Positions 4,980-15,838 of a stretch of 25,395 bases of DNA are shown in pieces. The stretch comes from a virus. Both the position numbers and the translations under genes were made by a program. The stretch spans positions 1-25,395 of IMG/VR virus record IMGVR_UViG_3300007276_000271; one strand, given 5' to 3'. Every line of letters begins with the position of its first letter. The first letter of the stretch is position 1. The notes under the pieces are model-generated. The model was not told where the DNA came from and did not search any database. It was given only the letters and a program-made list of their open reading frames with translations.

Positions 4980-6188
4980 TTAATGTTCTGTTTTTGGTTC
5001 GTACTTGTTCCCATTCAATTTAACCTCCAATGTAGGATCAAGTTTTAACATACGGTTGACTATTACTTGGCAGTATCTAGGGTCTAATTCCATGCCGTAA
5101 CATCTCCTTTTCATTTCGTGAGAAGCTATCATTGTTGTTCCTGAACCTAAGAAAGCGTCACACACTAAATCTCCTTTTTTAGAACTGTTTCCTATTTGGT
5201 AAGAAATAAGAGGAATTGGTTTCATTGTTGGATGTTCTGCATTTCTTGAAGGTCTGTCAAACTCTAAAACTGTTGTTTGTTTTCTGTCTGTGTACCAATT
5301 ATGTGCAGCACCTTCTTTCCAGCCGTATAAGCATGGCTCATGTTTCCAATGATAATCTTGCCTTCCCATCACCATTGTTTGCTTTACCCAAATAAGGCAT
5401 TGCTTTACCATTATTCCAGCGTCAGCCATTGCTTTTCTAAAATTAGCGCCTTCGGAGTCAGCATGCCAAACATACCAAGAACCACCTGCTTTTGTGAAAC
5501 TCCCTAAAGCAGTGTAAAAGTCGTAAAGGAATTGATAAAAGTCACCATCTCCCATTGCGTCGTTCTTAATAGTTAGCGCTTCTTTTGTTTTTCCTTGATA
5601 CGCTACGTTGTATGGAGGGTCAGTTACTACTAAGTCACAAAGCTCACCATTCATTACCTTTTCCCATGTATCGTTTTCAGTAGAGCTTCCACACAGCAGT
5701 CTATGTTCCCCAATTTCAAACAAGTCTCCTAAAACAATATCAGTTTCAAGACCTCCTAACGGCACATCAAATTCATCTTCTTCTGCTTCAAGTACTTCGT
5801 CAACTTCAAAATCAGGCAAATCTAACCCCCATTCCTCCACTTGATCTGTGTCCCACTCATTGCTTATCATGTCCCAGTCCCATTCACCAAAGCCTACATT
5901 GTCCTTTATAATAAACTCCTTTTGTTGTTCTTCTGTAAGGTTGTCCGCTTTAATTATCGTTACTTCTTTCAGTCCAGCTTTCTTACAAGCTTCTAGCCTC
6001 ATGTTACCTCCTAGAACAATCATTTCAGCATTAACTACAATCGGTCTAATTTGTAGCATTTGCGGAAATTCCTTTACTGACTTAACTAGCTTTTTAAATT
6101 TATCGTCTTTTAATATTCTTGGATTATCTTTATTTGTGAATACGGTATTAATATCAACCGTTTCAATCATTTCTTTAATGTTTTTCAT
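4980..6188 (-). CDS. ParB-like / beta-class DNA methyltransferase fusion
   Basis: A 402-residue two-domain protein. Residues about 8-125 are a ParB/sulfiredoxin-like domain, with NPRILKD, then RPIVVNAEMIVLGGNMRLEACKKAG matching the family's G-G-x-R-x-x-A motif. From about 150 an adenine-N6 or cytosine-N4 methyltransferase follows, with DPPY at 190-193 (motif IV) and DAFLGSGTT at 344-352 (motif I). The IV-before-I order defines the beta class. It would methylate phage DNA using S-adenosylmethionine, perhaps to evade host restriction. Such ParB-methylase fusions are known in phages and integrated elements. Placed 12 bases upstream of the small terminase, it might act on DNA just before packaging (inference). 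The stretch between the domains (128-150) is acidic, probably a linker. A near-perfect -7 box lies four bases before the ATG. Confidence 0.9.
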   Translation of the reverse strand: MKNIKEMIETVDINTVFTNKDNPRILKDDKFKKLVKSVKEFPQMLQIRPIVVNAEMIVLGGNMRLEACKKAGLKEVTIIKADNLTEEQQKEFIIKDNVGFGEWDWDMISNEWDTDQVEEWGLDLPDFEVDEVLEAEEDEFDVPLGGLETDIVLGDLFEIGEHRLLCGSSTENDTWEKVMNGELCDLVVTDPPYNVAYQGKTKEALTIKNDAMGDGDFYQFLYDFYTALGSFTKAGGSWYVWHADSEGANFRKAMADAGIMVKQCLIWVKQTMVMGRQDYHWKHEPCLYGWKEGAAHNWYTDRKQTTVLEFDRPSRNAEHPTMKPIPLISYQIGNSSKKGDLVCDAFLGSGTTMIASHEMKRRCYGMELDPRYCQVIVNRMLKLDPTLEVKLNGNKYEPKTEH

Positions 6189-6192
6189 AGCA

Positions 6193-6200
6193 CGAATATA
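6193..6200 (-). promoter_or_regulatory. Possible -7 box before the ParB-methyltransferase gene
   Basis: The minus strand reads TATATTCG, one mismatch from the TATATTTG box seen elsewhere in this window, followed by TGCT and the ATG at 6188. The box-to-ATG spacing (four bases) is the same as before the portal gene and the small regulator gene. No convincing -33 TTTG is found 20 bases upstream. It could be chance. Confidence 0.28.
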
Positions 6201-6212
6201 CTAAAAAACAAA

Positions 6213-6410
6213 TTAATTAAAATCAGCTAAATCAGTACAGGCGAAAAAACTCCCAAAATCAACTACTAAATCATTATCCTCTAATGCGTAAAGTAGCTTT
6301 GTAGCTTGTAAAATGTTAATATCTAAGTCGTATGCTAATTCGTTTACTGTGATAGCGTTAACGTTTTTAACTATTCCTATTGCGTGGGCAATTAGTTCTT
6401 TGTTTTGCAT
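6213..6410 (-). CDS. Small winged-helix-like protein, function unknown
   Basis: A 65-residue protein. The stretch AITVNELAYDLDINILQATKLLYALEDNDLV (20-50) has the helix-turn-helix spacing of a small winged helix: a helix beginning TVNELA, a turn LDIN, a recognition helix QATKLLYALE, then a beta strand. It may bind DNA. It is the last of six small genes lying between the replication and packaging modules. The family is not recognised, and the HTH reading is by eye. Confidence 0.55.
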   Translation of the reverse strand: MQNKELIAHAIGIVKNVNAITVNELAYDLDINILQATKLLYALEDNDLVVDFGSFFACTDLADFN

Positions 6411-7466: not shown

Positions 7467-7721
7467 TTAACTTGTAGGTGTTATTTTCTTACGTATTTCA
7501 TCAACTGTGTCGTGTAAAACGTCGCTTATTGATTCAATATGCTCATCAACTGTTACATCTTTGCCCTCCCATTCTTGCATAAGTCTATTGCCCTGAGCTT
7601 CCCACTGGTTAAAAAGCATTTTAAACTTTTTGCTTAATGTACCCTTTAACATCGTCTTTTGTTCAACGGTGGTTTTGAATAATGCTATTAATATGTCAGC
7701 TTCTACTATTTTGTTTTCCAT
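7467..7721 (-). CDS. 84-residue helical hypothetical protein
   Basis: An all-helical, charged protein: MENKIVEADILIALFKTTVE, then a basic segment TLSKKFKMLF, then an acidic C-terminal half (DVTVDEHIESISDVLHDTVDEIRKK). No domain, signal peptide or membrane segment is visible. It lies 11 bases after the 89-residue gene. The role is unknown. Confidence 0.5.
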   Translation of the reverse strand: MENKIVEADILIALFKTTVEQKTMLKGTLSKKFKMLFNQWEAQGNRLMQEWEGKDVTVDEHIESISDVLHDTVDEIRKKITPTS

Positions 7722-7732
7722 GTTGTTTGTTT

Positions 7733-8002
7733 TTATTCTGAAAAATCAAATTCAGTTTCATTAAAATCTTCAAGACTTATCATGTTTTCCAATGCGCTTA
7801 TTATCCTGCGCTTTGTTACTACCTTATCATTTTGATCGTATACCGTTATAATCTCAACGCCTACCAATTCAATACTAGAAAGGTATTCCGTTCCAAATTC
7901 ATGGTCAAAGGATTCATCAACTAAGTTACCTTCTACCTCCACTTCACATAGGTAAGTGATGCCGTTCAATTCAATTTCTTTTTCTTCGTAAGCTGTTGCC
8001 AT
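7733..8002 (-). CDS. 89-residue beta-rich hypothetical protein
   Basis: I choose the ATG at 8002 (MATAYEEKEIELNG) over an in-frame ATG at 8059. The extra 19 residues would be encoded by a regulatory region containing an inverted repeat and the stop codon of the preceding methyltransferase gene. The protein is acidic and alternates short beta strands (GITYLCEVEVEG, IELVGVEIITVYD). This resembles small phage hypothetical proteins of the replication region; the family is not known to me. It is the first gene behind the operator-like site at 8034-8051 and so probably starts a small accessory operon reaching 6213. Confidence 0.55.
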   Translation of the reverse strand: MATAYEEKEIELNGITYLCEVEVEGNLVDESFDHEFGTEYLSSIELVGVEIITVYDQNDKVVTKRRIISALENMISLEDFNETEFDFSE

Positions 8003-8033
8003 TTTGTTTAGTTTAATTGGTTTATGATGTAAA

Positions 8034-8051
8034 TATACACAAAATTGTATA
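8034..8051 (-). promoter_or_regulatory. Operator-like inverted repeat with possible -7 box
   Basis: The minus strand reads TATACAATTTTGTGTATA, an inverted repeat of TATACA and TGTATA separated by six bases. It runs into TTTA, so TATATTTA would be a one-mismatch -7 box overlapping the right half-site. It begins directly after the stop codon of the methyltransferase gene and lies about 30 bases before the ATG at 8002. The same 18-mer with one change occurs at 15483-15500. Confidence 0.5.
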
Positions 8052-8687
8052 CTACACAACTATTTCAGATGCTTTTATTATTTCAATACATAATTCTTCA
8101 GGAATTTTAGACCTGTTATAATTTCCTTTTACCCCTTGTGTTCCTGTTCTGCTTCCTCTTGGGGCAGCTTCATGGTGGCATTTACGATTACCATTAAAGC
8201 ACATCGGTCTTGGCTGCCATCCTTCAAGGTTAAAAAGAGAATGTATATTGTTGCTCCAAATATCAGTTGGTTTCATTCTTGTATCTCCATAACTACAATA
8301 AGTAACGGTTGTTCTTGGTATATTCATCATAAAATTCATCTTCCTAAGCATCCCTACAGGGTTCTCCATGTAGTAAATACAATCAAAATGCTTGATTATC
8401 TTCAAAGTGTTAGCTATTAATCTATCGCTTTTCTCTGCAAAGTCTGTTTTAGGAATTTGTCCATTTCTGTGGTGGCTTATCGCTGCTATTGAATAAGTGG
8501 TACAAGGTGGTGAAGCCCAAATCACATCAGGTTTAAACGGTATCATTTCAGGCGTTAAGTCTTCAATATCAATTGCTAAATCAATATTTTGAAAGGGCTT
8601 TAAGTCAACGCTAAAAACTTCATGTCCTAATGCTTCGGCTGCTTTTCCTACTGATCTACTGCCAGCAAACAATTCTAATATTTTCAT
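8052..8687 (-). CDS. C5-cytosine methyltransferase-like protein
   Basis: A 211-residue protein that probably transfers a methyl group from S-adenosylmethionine to cytosine C5. It has motif I LELFAGSRSVGKA (4-16), a motif II-like VFSVDLKP acidic strand end, motif IV WASPPCTTYS with the likely nucleophile Cys62, and motif VI-like MENPVG (107-112; ENP in place of the more common ENV). It is shorter than typical Dcm enzymes (300-400 residues) and lacks a large recognition domain, a feature of compact phage methylases. The C-terminal part contains CFNGNRKCHHEAAPRGS, with Cys/His residues that could bind metal. The ATG overlaps the VRR-NUC stop (ATGA). It ends the replication operon. Confidence 0.8.
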   Translation of the reverse strand: MKILELFAGSRSVGKAAEALGHEVFSVDLKPFQNIDLAIDIEDLTPEMIPFKPDVIWASPPCTTYSIAAISHHRNGQIPKTDFAEKSDRLIANTLKIIKHFDCIYYMENPVGMLRKMNFMMNIPRTTVTYCSYGDTRMKPTDIWSNNIHSLFNLEGWQPRPMCFNGNRKCHHEAAPRGSRTGTQGVKGNYNRSKIPEELCIEIIKASEIVV

Positions 8688-9016
8688 TTAACTATTTTCT
8701 TAAATTCTTCTAAACTTCTGACGACATAATACTCAAAACCTAAGTTGTTAACCTTGTTTTGGAAGTCAATTTGTGATTTTGATTGTCGCCCCTTTTCAAG
8801 TTTCAACTCAACAAAGATTATTCTGTTAGGTTGTATCACTATCAAATCAGAAACACCAGCCAGTAAACCAGTAGCTTTAAACTTTGCAGCTTCACTTTTT
8901 GACCGTAGGCCACCGTTAGGAACTGAAAAAATACAGTGTTGCGGGTCGCTTAATTTGTTGCAATAGCTATTGTGATACCATTTATAGAGTTTTGCTTGTA
9001 ATATGTCCTCAGTCAT
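8684..9016 (-). CDS. VRR-NUC domain nuclease
   Basis: A 110-residue protein, essentially a single VRR-NUC (PF08774) domain of the PD-(D/E)XK superfamily. Key features are E3 near the N-terminus, SVPNGGLRSKSEAAKFKATG leading to GVSDLIVI (the catalytic Asp), then IIFVELKLEKGRQSKSQIDFQ with the E-x-K pair and the family's conserved Ser-x-x-Q. It would cut branched or flapped DNA with a metal cofactor. It is encoded directly behind an SF2 helicase (overlapping by eight bases), a pairing common in phage replication modules, and the two may work together on replication intermediates. Confidence 0.88.
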   Translation of the reverse strand: MTEDILQAKLYKWYHNSYCNKLSDPQHCIFSVPNGGLRSKSEAAKFKATGLLAGVSDLIVIQPNRIIFVELKLEKGRQSKSQIDFQNKVNNLGFEYYVVRSLEEFKKIVK

Positions 9017-10601
9017 TTTGATAAGTTTTTGAAATTGCTTTTATAGTTTGGTTAGTAAAATCTTCAATAGTTCTCCTTCTGTTGCCTTCTAAATTACTGT
9101 CATTTATTGCGAAATAGTAAGGTAGAATAAAGTCTTTTGTTTTCTTAAATAGTACTCCTGTAGCCTTATTATGCTTAAACACCTGAATAGGTACGTTTTC
9201 AAACATTCCAGCAACATAGCTGTAAACTATCTTTCTTGCTGTTAGGCAATCTTTTTTCGCCTTTTGACAGTGTTCAATGATTTGTTTAGGTTTTGGAATA
9301 ACAGGCTTTCCTTCTCTTGTTGGTAGTCCAGTAACACCACCCCCGAACTTCCTTTCTTCATTGCAAACCTCACATTTTAAAGAGTTAGCTGCTATAATAC
9401 TTTCACAATTGTGACAAGTTCTTACTGCTGCTGGTTGTGCTGCTCCTACCTCTTTAGTTTCTTTGTCGTTAAATAAACTTTTCCACTCTCTAGGATCGCT
9501 CCAATTGCCAAAATCTTCTTTATTGTTACCCATATCAATCACTCTAAAGCTAGGTTTAAATATTTTGTCCGTTATTCTACCACCCCTTCCAACCATTTGA
9601 AGGTATAAATTAACAGATTTTGTTTTTTTATTCAAAAATATCGCTTCTACGTCTGTACAATCGAATCCAGTTGTGAACACGTGAACATTCAATAAAACAG
9701 CGTCAGGCGTATCTTTAAACCACTGTATCAAGTCTTTTCTGTTCTCGCTTTGGTTATTACTGTCATACATCTTAACATTTGCACCTATTTTTAGCATTGC
9801 TTCATAAAGCTTTTTATTCACTAAGGTGTTAGGGTTAAATATTATCGTCTTTTTATTTGATGCTAATTGCTGATAAGTTTGTACTGTGTTTGCAATTGCT
9901 TCAGGTGAGCCAAAAACCAAACCTATACTTTCCTCTGTGTATTCTCCGTTCGATGGATTGTAAACTAATTGGCTAGTGTCAATCTTTAATACAAAAGGGT
10001 CGTCTTTTACTAAATATTCTTTTTTAATTAGTTCGTTAATACCGATACCCTCAATTAATGTATGATAATAATCAGCTAAAGGCACGTTTTCTCTGTACTT
10101 TTTTAGCTTTCTATTGCAACACTTACCGCTTTTATCTTCCTCAATACCGCACTTTAAGCACTTGTAAAAGTATTTGCTCTTTTCATAGTTTGGTGTAGCT
10201 GTCAAACCTATTACTTTACCTTTGAATAAGTCTAGTATCTTCATAAATTCGCCCCTATGAGCTTCGTCAATAATGATATTATCAAAGCTATTCACATCAA
10301 TAAGCCCTTTCTTTACTCTATTATGAAGGGTTTGAACCATTGCAACACAAATATCTTTGCTCAGGTGCTTAACTTTTGGAAGTAGTAAGTCGTGTTCTTC
10401 TTTCAATGTAGCTGACGTCTGATGCACTAACTCTTCTCTGTGGACGCATACTAAGGTTTTACCATTTAAGAGCGTTACAAGCTCTGAAAATATCACTGTC
10501 TTACCTCCACCTGTCGCTAATGAAACACAGCAACGTTGATTTGTTTCAAGATGAGTAAGAACTTTGCTTACTACATCTTTTTGATAGTCTCTTAAAATCA
10601 T
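9009..10601 (-). CDS. SF2 DEAH-box helicase with zinc motifs
   Basis: A 530-residue SF2 helicase/translocase of the SSL2/UvsW-like type. It shows a Q-like motif RDYQKD (4-9), Walker A ATGGGKT (29-35), DEAH at 112-115, GLTATP at 132-137, a helicase-C domain with TTGFDCTDVEA, and motif VI QMVGRGGR (335-342). A Cys cluster is inserted directly after motif III (C148-x2-C151, C161-C162), and a second CxxC...CxxC set is at 396-413, probably zinc ribbons. It may remodel replication forks or recombination intermediates. It sits between the primase-helicase and the VRR-NUC nuclease in one operon. Confidence 0.9.
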   Translation of the reverse strand: MILRDYQKDVVSKVLTHLETNQRCCVSLATGGGKTVIFSELVTLLNGKTLVCVHREELVHQTSATLKEEHDLLLPKVKHLSKDICVAMVQTLHNRVKKGLIDVNSFDNIIIDEAHRGEFMKILDLFKGKVIGLTATPNYEKSKYFYKCLKCGIEEDKSGKCCNRKLKKYRENVPLADYYHTLIEGIGINELIKKEYLVKDDPFVLKIDTSQLVYNPSNGEYTEESIGLVFGSPEAIANTVQTYQQLASNKKTIIFNPNTLVNKKLYEAMLKIGANVKMYDSNNQSENRKDLIQWFKDTPDAVLLNVHVFTTGFDCTDVEAIFLNKKTKSVNLYLQMVGRGGRITDKIFKPSFRVIDMGNNKEDFGNWSDPREWKSLFNDKETKEVGAAQPAAVRTCHNCESIIAANSLKCEVCNEERKFGGGVTGLPTREGKPVIPKPKQIIEHCQKAKKDCLTARKIVYSYVAGMFENVPIQVFKHNKATGVLFKKTKDFILPYYFAINDSNLEGNRRRTIEDFTNQTIKAISKTYQND

Positions 10602-10603
10602 GA

Positions 10604-12961
10604 TTAAAATGGTAGTTTTTCAATTGGTTCTTCTTCACCAATATAAAAGTTAATTACTCCGTTAAATTTTCCCTCTCTGAATGAAATTTCGTTAAACTCA
10701 CAATATCCTTTTACTTTTTTATTGAAATTTTGCGCTGTGTTAAACTTAGCAAGTGTTGGGTATTGTCTATTAAAGTCGTCTCTAAACTCTTTTCTATTGA
10801 TTGGGTTACCATCAAACATTTTAGAGTCCATAAATTCTAGCAACTCGGCACCGCTTTCATTTTTAAACTTCCTGAATTTTAGATTTACCTTATCACTTTG
10901 TTTTAACCCATTCTTTAAAAAGAACTGCACCGCTCTAATCATGAAGTTGTCGAAGCTTGCCCACTCTGTAGCATCCCATTCAGAAAAGAATAACTGATTG
11001 AACTCCATTTCAGGCGTCCAGCTATCGTTAAAATGGTTAGCTATCTCAACCTCAAACACTCTTCGCTCGTGACTTGCACCGCTACCATTAACAGTGTAGT
11101 TAGTTGTAATTGATATTTTCGGGCTTTCTTCAAATGGTATTTGATACGAATCCTTACCTTTCTTTTCAACTGTCATACCCTCCGTAATGATTGAAAATAA
11201 GCTTTCAAAGTTAAAGCGTTTCGGTACGTCATCCATTAAGAAAATTTGAGTGTCTTTGTTTACCTTCTGATAAGCGAATTGGTTTTTTGAATCAAACTTT
11301 TTACCATCCTCAATAACTATATTTTTAATGTGTCCTATTGCCTTGTGTATTAATCCTTTACCTGAACCACCGTTCGGTATGTCCTCGCTTATCATTTCGT
11401 CATTGAATATAATTGCTTTGGGCTTTGCTTCATTTTGATAAGAGTGCATTAAATACCCTATTACAGATTTTAAAGTATAGTACCTGTCTATGTTCTCACC
11501 AGCTAACTTCCAAATAAAGGTCTTAAATACGCCGTCGCTCTCTTCTTTTATTTGTATGTCTCTTTTTATTACTTGGTTCTTCCATATTAAGTCTGTAATA
11601 TCTGAGTAGTTAAGTATCTCAATATTGTCTCTTGTTGTCTTGACTGCTGCATTTTGATAATATACATAAGACTCTTTTGCTGTGTCTCTATTGAATTTAA
11701 CGTCTATTGTTTTAATCATTGACAAAAATCGCGAATCAAAGTAAGATGTAATATTTGCCATTAATTCAAAAGCATCAATCAAACCTCTTTTCCTTAAATC
11801 AGCTAAAACAAAATCTTTTATTTTTGACTCTTCAAATACTGAAATAAAATTCTTATCATTTTTAACGAATATGTAAGCTCCACTATTAGCGTCAGGGTAG
11901 AATTTAAATATATTATTATGTTCTAGGTATTGCAAAAACCTGAATGAAGCCAGTTTAATTTGGTCGTTGTCTGTGTAGTACCAAAACTCATCAAGTTGTA
12001 AATCCTTTTTGTGGCTTTCAAACTCTTCTTTCACCTTCTCAAAATCAAGGTCTTTCGCCTTGTGTTTTAATCTTTCAATACTTTCGCCAGCTATTGCAAG
12101 ATGCTTTATTTCTTTAACCATCTTAGTGTCTTCAAAGCTCTTTGTGTTGTGCTCCTTTGTGTACTTATAAGCTGAATCAATTAGCTTTTGTATTTCAACT
12201 TCTTTACCTCCTGAGTTGTATCTCATTAAATACCCTTCACAAGTACCTTTGTCAATACCAAAAGCATTCATTTGTCTAGCATAAGAATGTAGGTTGTTGT
12301 TCCTGTTGGTTGTTGTCCAGCGTTTTTTAAACCACTTTTCAAGTCTTTCGGCAACTTCATTCTTATCAGTAATTGGAATATTAACAACCTTTGTTTCTAC
12401 TGGTAATGGTCTATTGAATTTATCAGTAAAGATTTCACTTTCATTATTTAAATAAAGCTCTTCGTCATAGCTAAAATAACAAGCTCTTGCAATGTCTTTT
12501 GTTGATTCATCTAGTTCATAATACTTTTTATAATGGTTAGTTAATTCATGGTAATAGTCTTGATAATCGTTGTTGTTATCTACACTTGGAATTTTAACAA
12601 GCACTTTCAATCCATCACCTGAAGGTGAAACAAAAGAGGAAAATGTATAAGGGTCTTGATTTATTTGCGTCCTTAACTCTTCAAGGCTGCTAACATCGTC
12701 AAAGTCTAAACAAGCAAGTCCTGAATGAGCTTTCAAGTTTGAGTTTGATCTACTGGTAAACGTTCCACAAAAAGTCGTATAAGGTAACAGGCTTTTAAGT
12801 TTGTTACGTTCACTCTTTTCTTTTTCTATTCTGATTGCAGCTATCTTACTTTTGTAAGCTCCACTTTTAATTAAATCAAGCACTTTCAGAACTGAGGTGT
12901 CTTTGATTGGTGCTATCGCTTTGATAGATTTGTAAATTGATACTTTCATAAAGTTTTGCAT
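10604..12961 (-). CDS. Primase-helicase (VirE/BT4734-type N-domain plus SF3 helicase)
   Basis: A 785-residue replication protein. Residues 1-185 look like the BT4734/VirE N-terminal domain, related to archaeo-eukaryotic primases: ACLDFDDV (83-90, acidic DxD pair) and SFVSPSGDGLKVLVKI (109-124). The C-terminal part is a superfamily 3 helicase, with Walker A NGGSGKG (530-536), Walker B IFLMDD (573-578), motif C ISITTN (616-621) and an arginine finger near HERR (631-634). It probably primes and unwinds phage DNA. I start at ATG 12961, preceded by AAAGAGG eight bases upstream. The frame is open further upstream to 13054, but that stretch overlaps the promoter and leader. An alternative ATG at 12949 is possible. 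Confidence 0.87.
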   Translation of the reverse strand: MQNFMKVSIYKSIKAIAPIKDTSVLKVLDLIKSGAYKSKIAAIRIEKEKSERNKLKSLLPYTTFCGTFTSRSNSNLKAHSGLACLDFDDVSSLEELRTQINQDPYTFSSFVSPSGDGLKVLVKIPSVDNNNDYQDYYHELTNHYKKYYELDESTKDIARACYFSYDEELYLNNESEIFTDKFNRPLPVETKVVNIPITDKNEVAERLEKWFKKRWTTTNRNNNLHSYARQMNAFGIDKGTCEGYLMRYNSGGKEVEIQKLIDSAYKYTKEHNTKSFEDTKMVKEIKHLAIAGESIERLKHKAKDLDFEKVKEEFESHKKDLQLDEFWYYTDNDQIKLASFRFLQYLEHNNIFKFYPDANSGAYIFVKNDKNFISVFEESKIKDFVLADLRKRGLIDAFELMANITSYFDSRFLSMIKTIDVKFNRDTAKESYVYYQNAAVKTTRDNIEILNYSDITDLIWKNQVIKRDIQIKEESDGVFKTFIWKLAGENIDRYYTLKSVIGYLMHSYQNEAKPKAIIFNDEMISEDIPNGGSGKGLIHKAIGHIKNIVIEDGKKFDSKNQFAYQKVNKDTQIFLMDDVPKRFNFESLFSIITEGMTVEKKGKDSYQIPFEESPKISITTNYTVNGSGASHERRVFEVEIANHFNDSWTPEMEFNQLFFSEWDATEWASFDNFMIRAVQFFLKNGLKQSDKVNLKFRKFKNESGAELLEFMDSKMFDGNPINRKEFRDDFNRQYPTLAKFNTAQNFNKKVKGYCEFNEISFREGKFNGVINFYIGEEEPIEKLPF

Positions 12962-13354: not shown

Positions 13355-13822
13355 TTAAACCCTACTTACACAATCATTTTCTTTGCTCCACTGCTTTAAG
13401 ATTACCATTTTTTCAGGTGTATCATAAAAACCTACACTGTTACTTGTAAGCTCTTTACTTCCAAAATGCTCAGGGTTATAAGCTCCAATGATTGATTTAA
13501 TTTGCTTTACGTGGGCCGCTACGTCATCGTACAAGTCGAATTGTGTCTGAATTTTTAACTTTCCATGTATTACACTTGCATGATCTCGGTTTATGAATTT
13601 GCCTATTTCTTTTAACGTCTTGTTAAAGGTTGTATTGTAAGCCAAATAGCAAAAGATGTGCCTGGCATAAACTATTTTCGCCAGTCTGTTACTGCTTCTC
13701 ACTTCGTCTTTTGATACCCCTAAGACGCTACAAGTCGTTTCAAGTACATTATTTAAGCTAACACCTTTGCAGACGTTTAAGCCAACAAAGATTTCTGATT
13801 TGATCCGTTGTTCTTTTGTCAT
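13355..13822 (-). CDS. DnaA domain IV-like DNA-binding protein
   Basis: A 155-residue protein whose core (about 30-92) matches the DnaA C-terminal domain: VSKDEVRSSNRLAKIVYARHI..., IGKFINRDHASVIHGKLKI. The latter is the signature segment that binds DnaA boxes (RDHTTV-H in bacterial DnaA; here RDHASVIHG at 79-87). The AAA+ ATPase domain is absent. It probably binds specific sites, perhaps to mark the phage origin and recruit the primase-helicase, or to act as a regulator. It is the last gene of the recombination operon and faces the AT-rich intergenic region. The start ATG overlaps the upstream stop as ATGA. Confidence 0.85.
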   Translation of the reverse strand: MTKEQRIKSEIFVGLNVCKGVSLNNVLETTCSVLGVSKDEVRSSNRLAKIVYARHIFCYLAYNTTFNKTLKEIGKFINRDHASVIHGKLKIQTQFDLYDDVAAHVKQIKSIIGAYNPEHFGSKELTSNSVGFYDTPEKMVILKQWSKENDCVSRV

Positions 13823-14003: not shown

Positions 14004-14645
14004 TTATTTATTTAAAAGTTCACTTAAATACTGCTGATAATACTTGTTTGCTACCTCGTAACGCTCTAGCATCTTTGTTTCAAGTGCTTCGTCACGTTCG
14101 ATGTTTACCGTTGAAATTCTACTAGCAGGATCAATATGGTCAACCTTATGAATCTTTTTATTATCCCAGTCTTTTAAAAGGCTATCAGGTGTACTAATCA
14201 TGCAGTAACGTATTGATGCCTTTGGTTTGTTCCATAACATCATGTAGCCCCTTAATTGCCAATCGTAACCGCTTTTCTTAACTGCTGCGGCTGCATCTTC
14301 TTGAAAGGCTGGGAAAGTTTCTAAACTCCAAGAGCTTTTGACATCAAGTATTTCGTCATCAGTTACAATATCAGCTTCACCCGTTAACCAGTCGTTAGTC
14401 TTGCGCTCTTCATTCTTCACGTACTTGTTAAAAGTAGCATCGTTAAGAAGATTAATTGAAAGGTTTTCGTAATCAATACCTTTGTTAATTGCTGGCGTAT
14501 CTAGTTGTTTTCTGTATTTAAACACTTCCTCTTTTACCATTTCTTTAAGCCATGTTTTAGTCGTTGCGCTTAATTCTTCTGTTTTTCCTCTTGGGTTAGT
14601 CATCATTTTAGATAAACTTGAACACCTTACTATTAAATTTTTCAT
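14004..14645 (-). CDS. Recombination exonuclease (YqaJ/lambda-exo-like, PD-(D/E)XK)
   Basis: A 213-residue nuclease that would chew dsDNA ends to feed the annealing protein. Visible motifs are E60 in NKGIDYE, D92 in LTGEADIV, D101-x-K103 in ILDVKSS, and the Q130-containing helix WQLRGYMML typical of the YqaJ/lambda exonuclease group. The N-terminal segment RCSSLSKMMTNPR resembles the start of this family. Its ATG overlaps the stop of the ERF gene (ATGA), the expected exonuclease-annealase pair of a phage homologous recombination system. Confidence 0.86.
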   Translation of the reverse strand: MKNLIVRCSSLSKMMTNPRGKTEELSATTKTWLKEMVKEEVFKYRKQLDTPAINKGIDYENLSINLLNDATFNKYVKNEERKTNDWLTGEADIVTDDEILDVKSSWSLETFPAFQEDAAAAVKKSGYDWQLRGYMMLWNKPKASIRYCMISTPDSLLKDWDNKKIHKVDHIDPASRISTVNIERDEALETKMLERYEVANKYYQQYLSELLNK

Positions 14646-15168: not shown

Positions 15169-15384
15169 TTATATTTCTTTTTTTAGATCAGTTAATACTT
15201 CAATTTTGCCTTTGTAAAAATCGCAATGTTCTTTTTTTAATTCTACCATTTCATCCATTCCTAGCTTTTGGTAATTAATTAAGCTATCTTGTGATTCAAT
15301 TAAGATGTCTTTGTACGCTTTTAAAAATGTATCAATTCTGATAATCATTAAATGGTAGTTTTCTGCTTTTTGTTCTGTTGTCAT
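15169..15384 (-). CDS. 71-residue helical hypothetical protein
   Basis: An all-helical charged protein (MTTEQKAENYHLMIIRIDTF; MVELKKEHCDFYKGKIEVL). It lies two bases before the ERF gene in the same operon. It has no recognisable domain; a coiled-coil is likely. It is the first sizeable gene behind the early promoter, which is common for small phage proteins that act on the host. Its function is unknown. Confidence 0.55.
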   Translation of the reverse strand: MTTEQKAENYHLMIIRIDTFLKAYKDILIESQDSLINYQKLGMDEMVELKKEHCDFYKGKIEVLTDLKKEI

Positions 15385-15478: not shown

Positions 15479-15500
15479 CAAATATACACATAATTGTATA
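15479..15500 (-). promoter_or_regulatory. Early operon promoter overlapping an operator-like inverted repeat
   Basis: The minus strand has TATACAATTATGTGTATA (15483-15500), an inverted repeat TATACA-N6-TGTATA that overlaps a perfect -7 box TATATTTG (15479-15486). The -33 position carries only TTTT. A protein bound here would block the promoter. It differs from the site at 8034-8051 by one base. The leader is about 90 bases long to the ATG at 15384. Confidence 0.6.
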
Positions 15501-15521: not shown

Positions 15522-15540
15522 TATTTTACAAAATAGTATA
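15522..15540 (-). promoter_or_regulatory. Degenerate second operator-like site
   Basis: The minus strand reads TATACTATTTTGTAAAATA, resembling the repeat at 15483-15500 in its left half and centre. The centres are about 40 bases apart, roughly four helical turns, so paired binding is imaginable. The right half-site is poor, and the site abuts the terminator T-tract; weak evidence. Confidence 0.25.
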
Positions 15541-15571
15541 AAAAAAAGGGTCAATCAATTAAGATTAACCC
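15540..15571 (-). terminator. Rho-independent terminator of the regulator gene
   Basis: On the minus strand a 9-bp stem, GGGTTAATC paired with GATTGACCC (one G-U pair), has loop TTAATT and is followed by eight T residues. It lies about 30 bases after the stop of the small regulator gene and isolates it from the early operon. Confidence 0.85.
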
Positions 15572-15601
15572 CTTTCACGTTTAAACCACTAAACAACCTA
15601 A

Positions 15602-15814
15602 CTAACTAATATTGTATTTTTGCCCTTTGTAAATTATTATAAATGGTTCGTCTGTTGATTCAATTACTTTCTTTAAATCTTCAGCGTGAATTTTGCCAGT
15701 ATTAACAGTACGCCAAAAAGAAGAGCTTTCACCCCTTCCAATTTTAACGCCTAAGCCTTTAACGTTTGTAGCGTTTTGCTTTGCCACTAATTTTATGAAG
15801 TCTTTTATAGTCAT
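15602..15814 (-). CDS. Small HTH regulator-like protein, candidate repressor
   Basis: A 70-residue protein. Residues about 1-48 suggest a compact helix-turn-helix: TIKDFIKLVAKQNATNVKGLGVKIGRGESSSFWRTV, followed by GKIHAEDLKKVIES. This is the arrangement seen in very small phage Cro/CI-like proteins and Bacteroidetes HTH proteins (short helix, LGVKIGRG turn, then a recognition helix). The end (PFIIIYKGQKYNI) forms a beta hairpin, as in Cro dimers. It stands alone with its own promoter-like box and terminator, next to the early promoter that carries an inverted repeat, so it is the natural candidate to bind there. The HTH assignment is by eye and the target is inferred from position. Confidence 0.6.
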   Translation of the reverse strand: MTIKDFIKLVAKQNATNVKGLGVKIGRGESSSFWRTVNTGKIHAEDLKKVIESTDEPFIIIYKGQKYNIS

Positions 15815-15818
15815 AAAT

Positions 15819-15838
15819 CAAATATACAAAAATGTAAA
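15819..15838 (-). promoter_or_regulatory. Regulator gene promoter box with related half-sites
   Basis: The minus strand has TTTACATTTTTGTATATTTG: a perfect -7 box TATATTTG (15819-15826) four bases before the ATG at 15814. It overlaps TTTACA-N4-TGTATA, a shorter-spaced relative of the operator-like repeat. No -33 TTTG lies at the right distance. It would give a leaderless message and possible autoregulation; both are inference. Confidence 0.45.

Follow-up and report, generated by a model that had tools for sequence, protein, structure and literature searches.

The 25,395-base stretch analysed here (hereafter the window), a whole virus record from IMG/VR, belongs to a phage of flavobacteria-like bacteria and encodes a 70-residue orphan protein that we propose, with a probability of about 0.75, to be an autoregulated Cro-like repressor that shuts down the early promoters of the phage. 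Its predicted target is a 16-bp dyad, TAYAC-N6-GTATA, present in all four of the relatives that carry the gene (L004, L047, L011 and L048) at the same three promoters as in the window: that of the 70-residue gene itself, that of the early (ERF/exonuclease/primase) operon, and that of the operon after the VRR-nuclease gene. Judged from sequence, these sites are almost certainly real operators; that the 70-residue protein is what binds them is a strong likelihood, and rests on co-conservation of gene and sites and on the site at the gene's own promoter.

All genes concerned are encoded on the minus strand, in the transcription order lysis-side genes, 70-residue gene, terminator, early operon, second operon. 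Within the early operon the order is 71-residue gene, ERF, exonuclease, DnaA-C-type, primase-type, helicase, VRR nuclease and methylase. The window features are as follows, in the direction of transcription.

15823–15838, minus strand: putative operator O1 (TTTAC-ATTTTT-GTATA), in the promoter of the regulator gene itself, overlying its −7 box
15819–15826, minus strand: −7 box of the regulator gene (TATATTTG), 4 nt before the ATG
15602–15814, minus strand: 70-residue orphan protein, predicted Cro/C1-type helix-turn-helix (HTH) regulator (homologues, profile–profile match)
15543–15576, minus strand: intrinsic terminator (hairpin plus U-run) between the regulator gene and the early operon
15525–15540, minus strand: putative operator O2 (TATAC-TATTTT-GTAAA), upstream of the early promoter, directly behind the terminator and 40 bp from O3
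15483–15500, minus strand: putative operator O3 of the early-operon promoter (16-bp core 15485–15500, TATAC-AATTAT-GTGTA), with orthologous dyads in L004, L047, L011 and L048
15479–15486, minus strand: −7 box of the early operon (TATATTTG)
15169–15384, minus strand: first gene of the early operon, 71 residues
14642–15166, minus strand: ERF-type single-strand annealing protein (PF04404, 3e-21)
14004–14645, minus strand: phage exonuclease (phrog_5715, 1.3e-69)
13355–13822, minus strand: protein with a DnaA C-terminal type DNA-binding domain (PF08299, 1.1e-17)
10604–12961, minus strand: BT4734-like/primase-type protein (PF08800, 6e-27)
9009–10601, minus strand: DEAD/ResIII helicase (PF04851, 2e-22)
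8684–9016, minus strand: VRR nuclease (PF08774)
8034–8051, minus strand: putative operator of the second ("mid") promoter (core 8036–8051, TATAC-AATTTT-GTGTA), with orthologous dyads in all four relatives
8030–8037, minus strand: −7 box of the second operon (TATATTTA)
7733–8002, minus strand: first gene of the second operon, 89 residues, with homologues following this site in L004, L047 and L048
6213–6410: winged-helix-like 65-residue protein (weak winged-helix-type matches), conserved in relatives
6195–6214, minus strand: degenerate relative of the sites at the next promoter (AATTTGTTTTTTAGTATATT), right half retained and left half gone

A hairpin plus U-run is found at the same place as the window terminator in L004, L047 and L048.

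The initial annotation had described an 18-bp inverted repeat shared by two promoters, and the 18-mer TATACAATT(A/T)TGTGTATA is indeed present at 15483–15500 and 8034–8051; on the minus strand the two copies read TATACAATTATGTGTATA (15500–15483) and TATACAATTTTGTGTATA (8051–8034), one base apart and each followed by TTT. Allowing up to three mismatches, the window contains only two matches to this 18-mer (shuffle mean 0.21, with two matches reached in 1 of 100 shuffles). The repeats had been placed over −7 boxes, which holds (TATATTTG at 15486–15479, TATATTTA at 8037–8030) but leaves out that they also fill the −33/−7 spacer: O3 occupies this spacer of the early promoter while overlapping its −7 box, and the second operator is placed between a TTG at 8057–8059 and the TATATTTA box at 8030–8037. 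The 18-bp form is not the conserved unit, which across the phages measures 16 bp and has a 6-bp spacer; nor did a scan for TATACA-N6-TGTATA, the form of the motif first suggested, rise far above background (37 occurrences in the window at three mismatches against 27), and that reading is superseded by the 16-bp unit taken from the relatives. Because this looser dyad is so close to background, the window by itself gave no means of assessing the weaker copies, and it was the relatives that settled the matter.

These relatives are what IMG/VR scans returned. Searching with the ERF protein turned up 42 loci, among which L004 and L011 have the 70-residue gene directly upstream of the early operon; L047 and L048 were added by a scan with the aligned 70-residue protein. 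Identity to the window protein is 67% in L004, 66% in L047, 63% in L048 and 53% in L011, and pairwise identities among the regulator proteins of the five phages span about 47–81%. The regulator gene has the site TTTACTTTTTTGTATA in L004 and L048, GTTACATTTTTGTATA in L047 and TGTACTTTTGTGTATA in L011; the early leader has TATATAAAATTGTATA in L004 and L047, TTTATAATATTGTATA in L048 and TATACTTTTACGTATA in L011; and the second promoter has TATATAATATTGTATA (L004), TATACATTTATGTAGA (L047), TATACTTTAGTGTATA (L011) and TATATAATATTGTACA (L048). We regard the second promoter as orthologous because of its shared neighbours, following the VRR-nuclease gene directly in L047, L011 and L048 and preceding homologues of the 89-residue gene in L004, L047 and L048 (28–44% identity). 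Phylogenetic footprinting of the leaders, as first suggested for this DNA, thus recovers dyads at orthologous promoters in all four relatives, and this conservation across five phages lends strong support to the regulon then pictured, which comprises the early operon, the second operon and the 70-residue gene.

O1 and O2 of the window have the 6-bp spacer. The early and second sites of the window can be read either with a 6-bp spacer and one altered base (GTGTA) or, equally well, with an 8-bp spacer as TATAC-N8-GTATA, an equal fit that sets them apart from every relative; the 6-bp reading is tentatively preferred. Four of the five phages have an O2-type copy 40–53 bp ahead of the early-promoter site (40 bp in the window, 43 in L004, 53 in L047 and 44 in L048), and it is missing from L011; these distances are near 4, 4, 5 and 4 helical turns, a phasing that is suggestive only. 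One further copy of the dyad is found in L004, at 19094. The near-identical relative L003, whose proteins are 99–100% identical to those of the window, has the 8034 site as well, but being almost the same phage it says nothing about conservation and was dropped as a footprint; the perfect 18-bp dyad is specific to this pair. A further 36 records, mostly fragments, were found via the gene at 1089–1979; none matched the 70-residue gene, and one contains the exact pattern.

Sites were scored with leave-one-phage-out matrices, each trained on the other phages' sites and run over both strands of the genome left out. Among the roughly 50,000 positions of the window, O1 (15823–15838) ranked first, O2 (15525–15540) second, the second-promoter site (8036–8051) third and the early site (15485–15500) sixth, with respective scores of 20.5, 18.9, 15.5 and 13.2, where shuffled sequences gave a best score of 12.9 on average; the two weaker copies noticed in the initial annotation are therefore real, and score highest. 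In every phage the sites ranked among the first 8 of all positions, with the regulator-promoter site first or joint third. Since mean best scores over 200 dinucleotide shuffles ran from 10.7 to 13.5, single L011 sites would not stand out alone, and the statistical weight lies in the recovery of orthologous places in every phage.

The promoters at the window sites are of the Bacteroidota sigma-A type. Bacteroidota promoters have a TTG element at −33, which is 19 bp ahead of the −7 box at the second promoter and weak at the early promoter of the window. The Bacteroidota sigma-A −7 box, TAnnTTTG, occupies positions −12 to −5 with respect to the start site (PMC9723704). Each of the five phages has an ATG 3–4 nt after the end of the −7 box of its regulator gene (15814–15826 in the window, and homologous places elsewhere); because the box adjoins the ATG and would itself lie at −12 to −5, the regulator mRNA is predicted to be leaderless or nearly so, a class that makes up only 5.5% of mRNAs in F. 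psychrophilum (PMC9723704). In L011, use of the ATG near the −7 box would extend the regulator N-terminus by about 20 residues.

The 70-residue protein matches nothing in Pfam, PHROGs or NCBIfam; a PF01381 search of the records gave no match, no related solved structure was found, and viral contigs, genome contigs, phages and plasmids yielded no relatives past the four described above. Two AlphaFold2 runs from a shallow alignment (pLDDT 62 and 59) returned a strand-rich, non-HTH topology, and a fold search with these low-confidence models found no meaningful match. By eye the sequence follows a Cro/C1 pattern, for which reason the family profile was compared with Cro/C1-type HTH proteins, the template set being eight small phage proteins confirmed as such by Pfam (seven of them members of PF13443). 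This hhalign comparison gave a probability of 86% and a score of 31.9, the alignment running collinearly through 58 columns and broken by one gap of a single residue. The result is somewhat weakened in that the template family was picked for its resemblance; the score exceeds those of all 200 column shuffles (at most 22.0), and the reversed alignment scores 17.2. We therefore predict a Cro/C1-type HTH protein, so that the HTH assignment of the initial annotation gains a profile–profile comparison, although not a match to any curated HTH family.

Two further DNA-binding proteins are encoded by these phages, the winged-helix-like protein (6213–6410) and the DnaA-C-type protein (13355–13822), and it is conceivable, if unlikely, that one of them binds what are real operators while the 70-residue protein does something else. 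Both are conserved in the relatives that have the sites, the 65-residue protein has its weak winged-helix-type matches, and the AlphaFold models of the 70-residue protein, at low confidence, contain no HTH. Yet the genes for these two candidates lack a conserved full site of their own in most phages, whereas the 70-residue gene has the best or joint third-best site at its promoter in every one; and in the same hhalign test the 65-residue family reached 26.7% (score 21.9) and the DnaA-C family 0.75% (score 14.7). DnaA-C domains, moreover, read DnaA boxes rather than TAYAC-N6-GTATA, which counts against the second candidate.

With the 70-residue protein as the favoured binder, the question becomes what kind of switch it would operate, described at first as either an early/late or a lysogeny-type one. 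If the protein instead maintained lysogeny or superinfection immunity in a temperate or plasmid-like phage, its sites on the early promoters and its own would fit, being features of lambda CI as well; the leaderless regulator mRNA would also fit, but cannot by itself separate lysogeny from early shut-off, as the lambda cI mRNA made from PRM is leaderless too. We consider this reading quite improbable, and the lysogeny switch was rejected, on three counts. First, neither the window nor the relatives tested contain a tyrosine integrase (PF00589), a serine recombinase or resolvase (PF00239) or an S24 protein (PF00717); the relatives examined for integration genes measure 31.8–32.5 kb and include one apparently complete genome of 31.9 kb, that of L004, whose record has a 123-bp terminal repeat. 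Second, regulator gene and early operon are read in the same direction, and a divergent CI/Cro pair is lacking. Third, the scan of bacterial genome contigs found no relative of the 70-residue protein. The absence of integrase, recombinase and S24 leads us to favour an early shut-off repressor, a role that is plausible.

In the early shut-off scheme, a predicted repressor dimer would bind TAYAC-N6-GTATA. On entry, when no repressor is present, host sigma-A RNA polymerase would transcribe both operons together with the leaderless regulator gene. Accumulating protein would then occupy the sites in the −33/−7 spacers, block polymerase at the promoters of the two operons and, via the site on its own promoter, curb its own synthesis. 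The terminator would stop late or regulator transcripts from entering the early operon, and O2, 40–53 bp upstream of the early site, may assist through cooperative binding. We infer binding, dimerisation, timing, and repression rather than activation.

Two alternatives would do away with a phage regulator, and both appear very improbable. Under the first, the sites belong to a host regulator and the phage taps host control such as the SOS response, as might be imagined for promoters of host sigma-A type from which a host repressor could be exploited. The characterised Bacteroidetes SOS repressors, which are LexA-type proteins with an S24 peptidase domain (a domain not found in these phages), share with the present case palindromic operators in Bacteroidetes promoters but bind GGA-N5-TCC or CTAA-N5-TTAG (PMC8565304). 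These published motifs differ from TAYAC-N6-GTATA, and host LexA was rejected as the binder; furthermore, ERF relatives that do not have the 70-residue gene have different leaders (e.g. ATTAATWATTAAT). The second alternative, a mere shared extended promoter element (GTATATTTG plus an A/T-rich spacer) with no regulator, can draw on the occurrence of GTATATT without a left half at other promoters (L011 capsid, terminase-side) but has against it the conservation of O2, which has no −7 box, and the distribution of the left half. When all GTATATT occurrences in the five phages were listed, TAY at 6-bp spacing was found almost solely at the regulator, early and second promoters (one exception, on the other strand of the L047 genome), and capsid and terminase-side promoters with GTATATT had no left half; this near-confinement makes the operator distinct from a mere extended −7 element.

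The proposed circuit is of an already known kind, while this instance, the protein family and the operator are, as far as we found, undescribed; the literature yielded no description of gene timing or operators in small Bacteroidota phages. The 434 Cro and repressor operators have the form ACAA-N6-TTGT. With lambdoid Cro/CI circuits the present arrangement has in common a small phage HTH protein (predicted here), several similar dyad operators, placed both at early promoters and at the promoter of the regulator, operators that overlap promoter elements, and a 6-bp spacer as in 434. It differs from them in that no divergent CI/Cro pair, integrase or CI was found; that regulator and early operon lie on one strand, the regulator upstream and a terminator between; that the promoters are of the Bacteroidota −33/−7 type; and that the protein falls outside the Pfam, PHROG and NCBIfam families. 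The closest comparison at the protein level is with small XRE proteins of Firmicutes phages (PF13443, HTH_26), such as those of Streptococcus phage Javan630 and Psychrobacillus phage Spoks, annotated as helix-turn-helix or XRE regulators: they have the same length and are collinear over 58 of 70 columns, but identity is only about 22%, and no single-sequence or profile-to-sequence match was obtained.

A similar design with another dyad is seen in an unrelated group of ERF phages (L014–L029), where ATTAATWATTAAT, a 13-bp perfect dyad, lies in the −33/−7 spacer of the ERF promoter, as here, in 15 of 17 loci (e.g. L014:9580–9592, L021:9743–9755), and recurs in L014 and L021 at the promoter of another operon 7–8 kb upstream (e.g. 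L021:2796–2808); the operator sequence is different and no relative of the 70-residue protein is present. We tentatively raise the possibility that operators embedded in the −33/−7 spacer represent a general, so far undescribed style of control. In apparently lytic Bacteroidota phages the early programme would then be under a single autoregulated protein from an orphan family, made from a leaderless mRNA, and unrelated phage groups would share the design with other dyads. For the phages described here, a predicted regulator and four located operators, conserved in five phages, make gene timing directly testable; the operator motif offers a handle for finding the regulon in other metagenomic phages, and an orphan protein family gains a likely function.

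Several observations lie beside this argument. At the promoter after the 65-residue gene (6195–6214 in the window), GTATATT is retained across the phages and the degenerate form of the site is also seen in L004, L047 and L011; a full dyad occurs there only in L113 (TATATTATTTCGTATA, L113:1501–1520), with L004 near one. In the window a cytosine-methylase-like gene (8052–8687) separates the VRR-nuclease gene from the second promoter, whereas L047, L011 and L048 have no such gene there. The 3′ end of this methylase-like gene (GAAATAGTTGTGTAG) is similar to the end of the VRR-nuclease gene in those three phages and provides the −33 element. In L048 about 45 bp of the early (484–530) and second (7543–7590) promoters, untranslated leader included, resemble each other, with 30 of 40 bases the same downstream of the site, as if a promoter–operator cassette had recently been copied. 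L011 has 15-bp tandem repeats in or after its ERF gene near the contig end (L011:10540–10989), either natural or an assembly artefact. Window positions 4980–6188 encode a ParB-N domain fused to an N6/N4 DNA methylase (PF02195 and PF01555), which is 71% conserved in L011.
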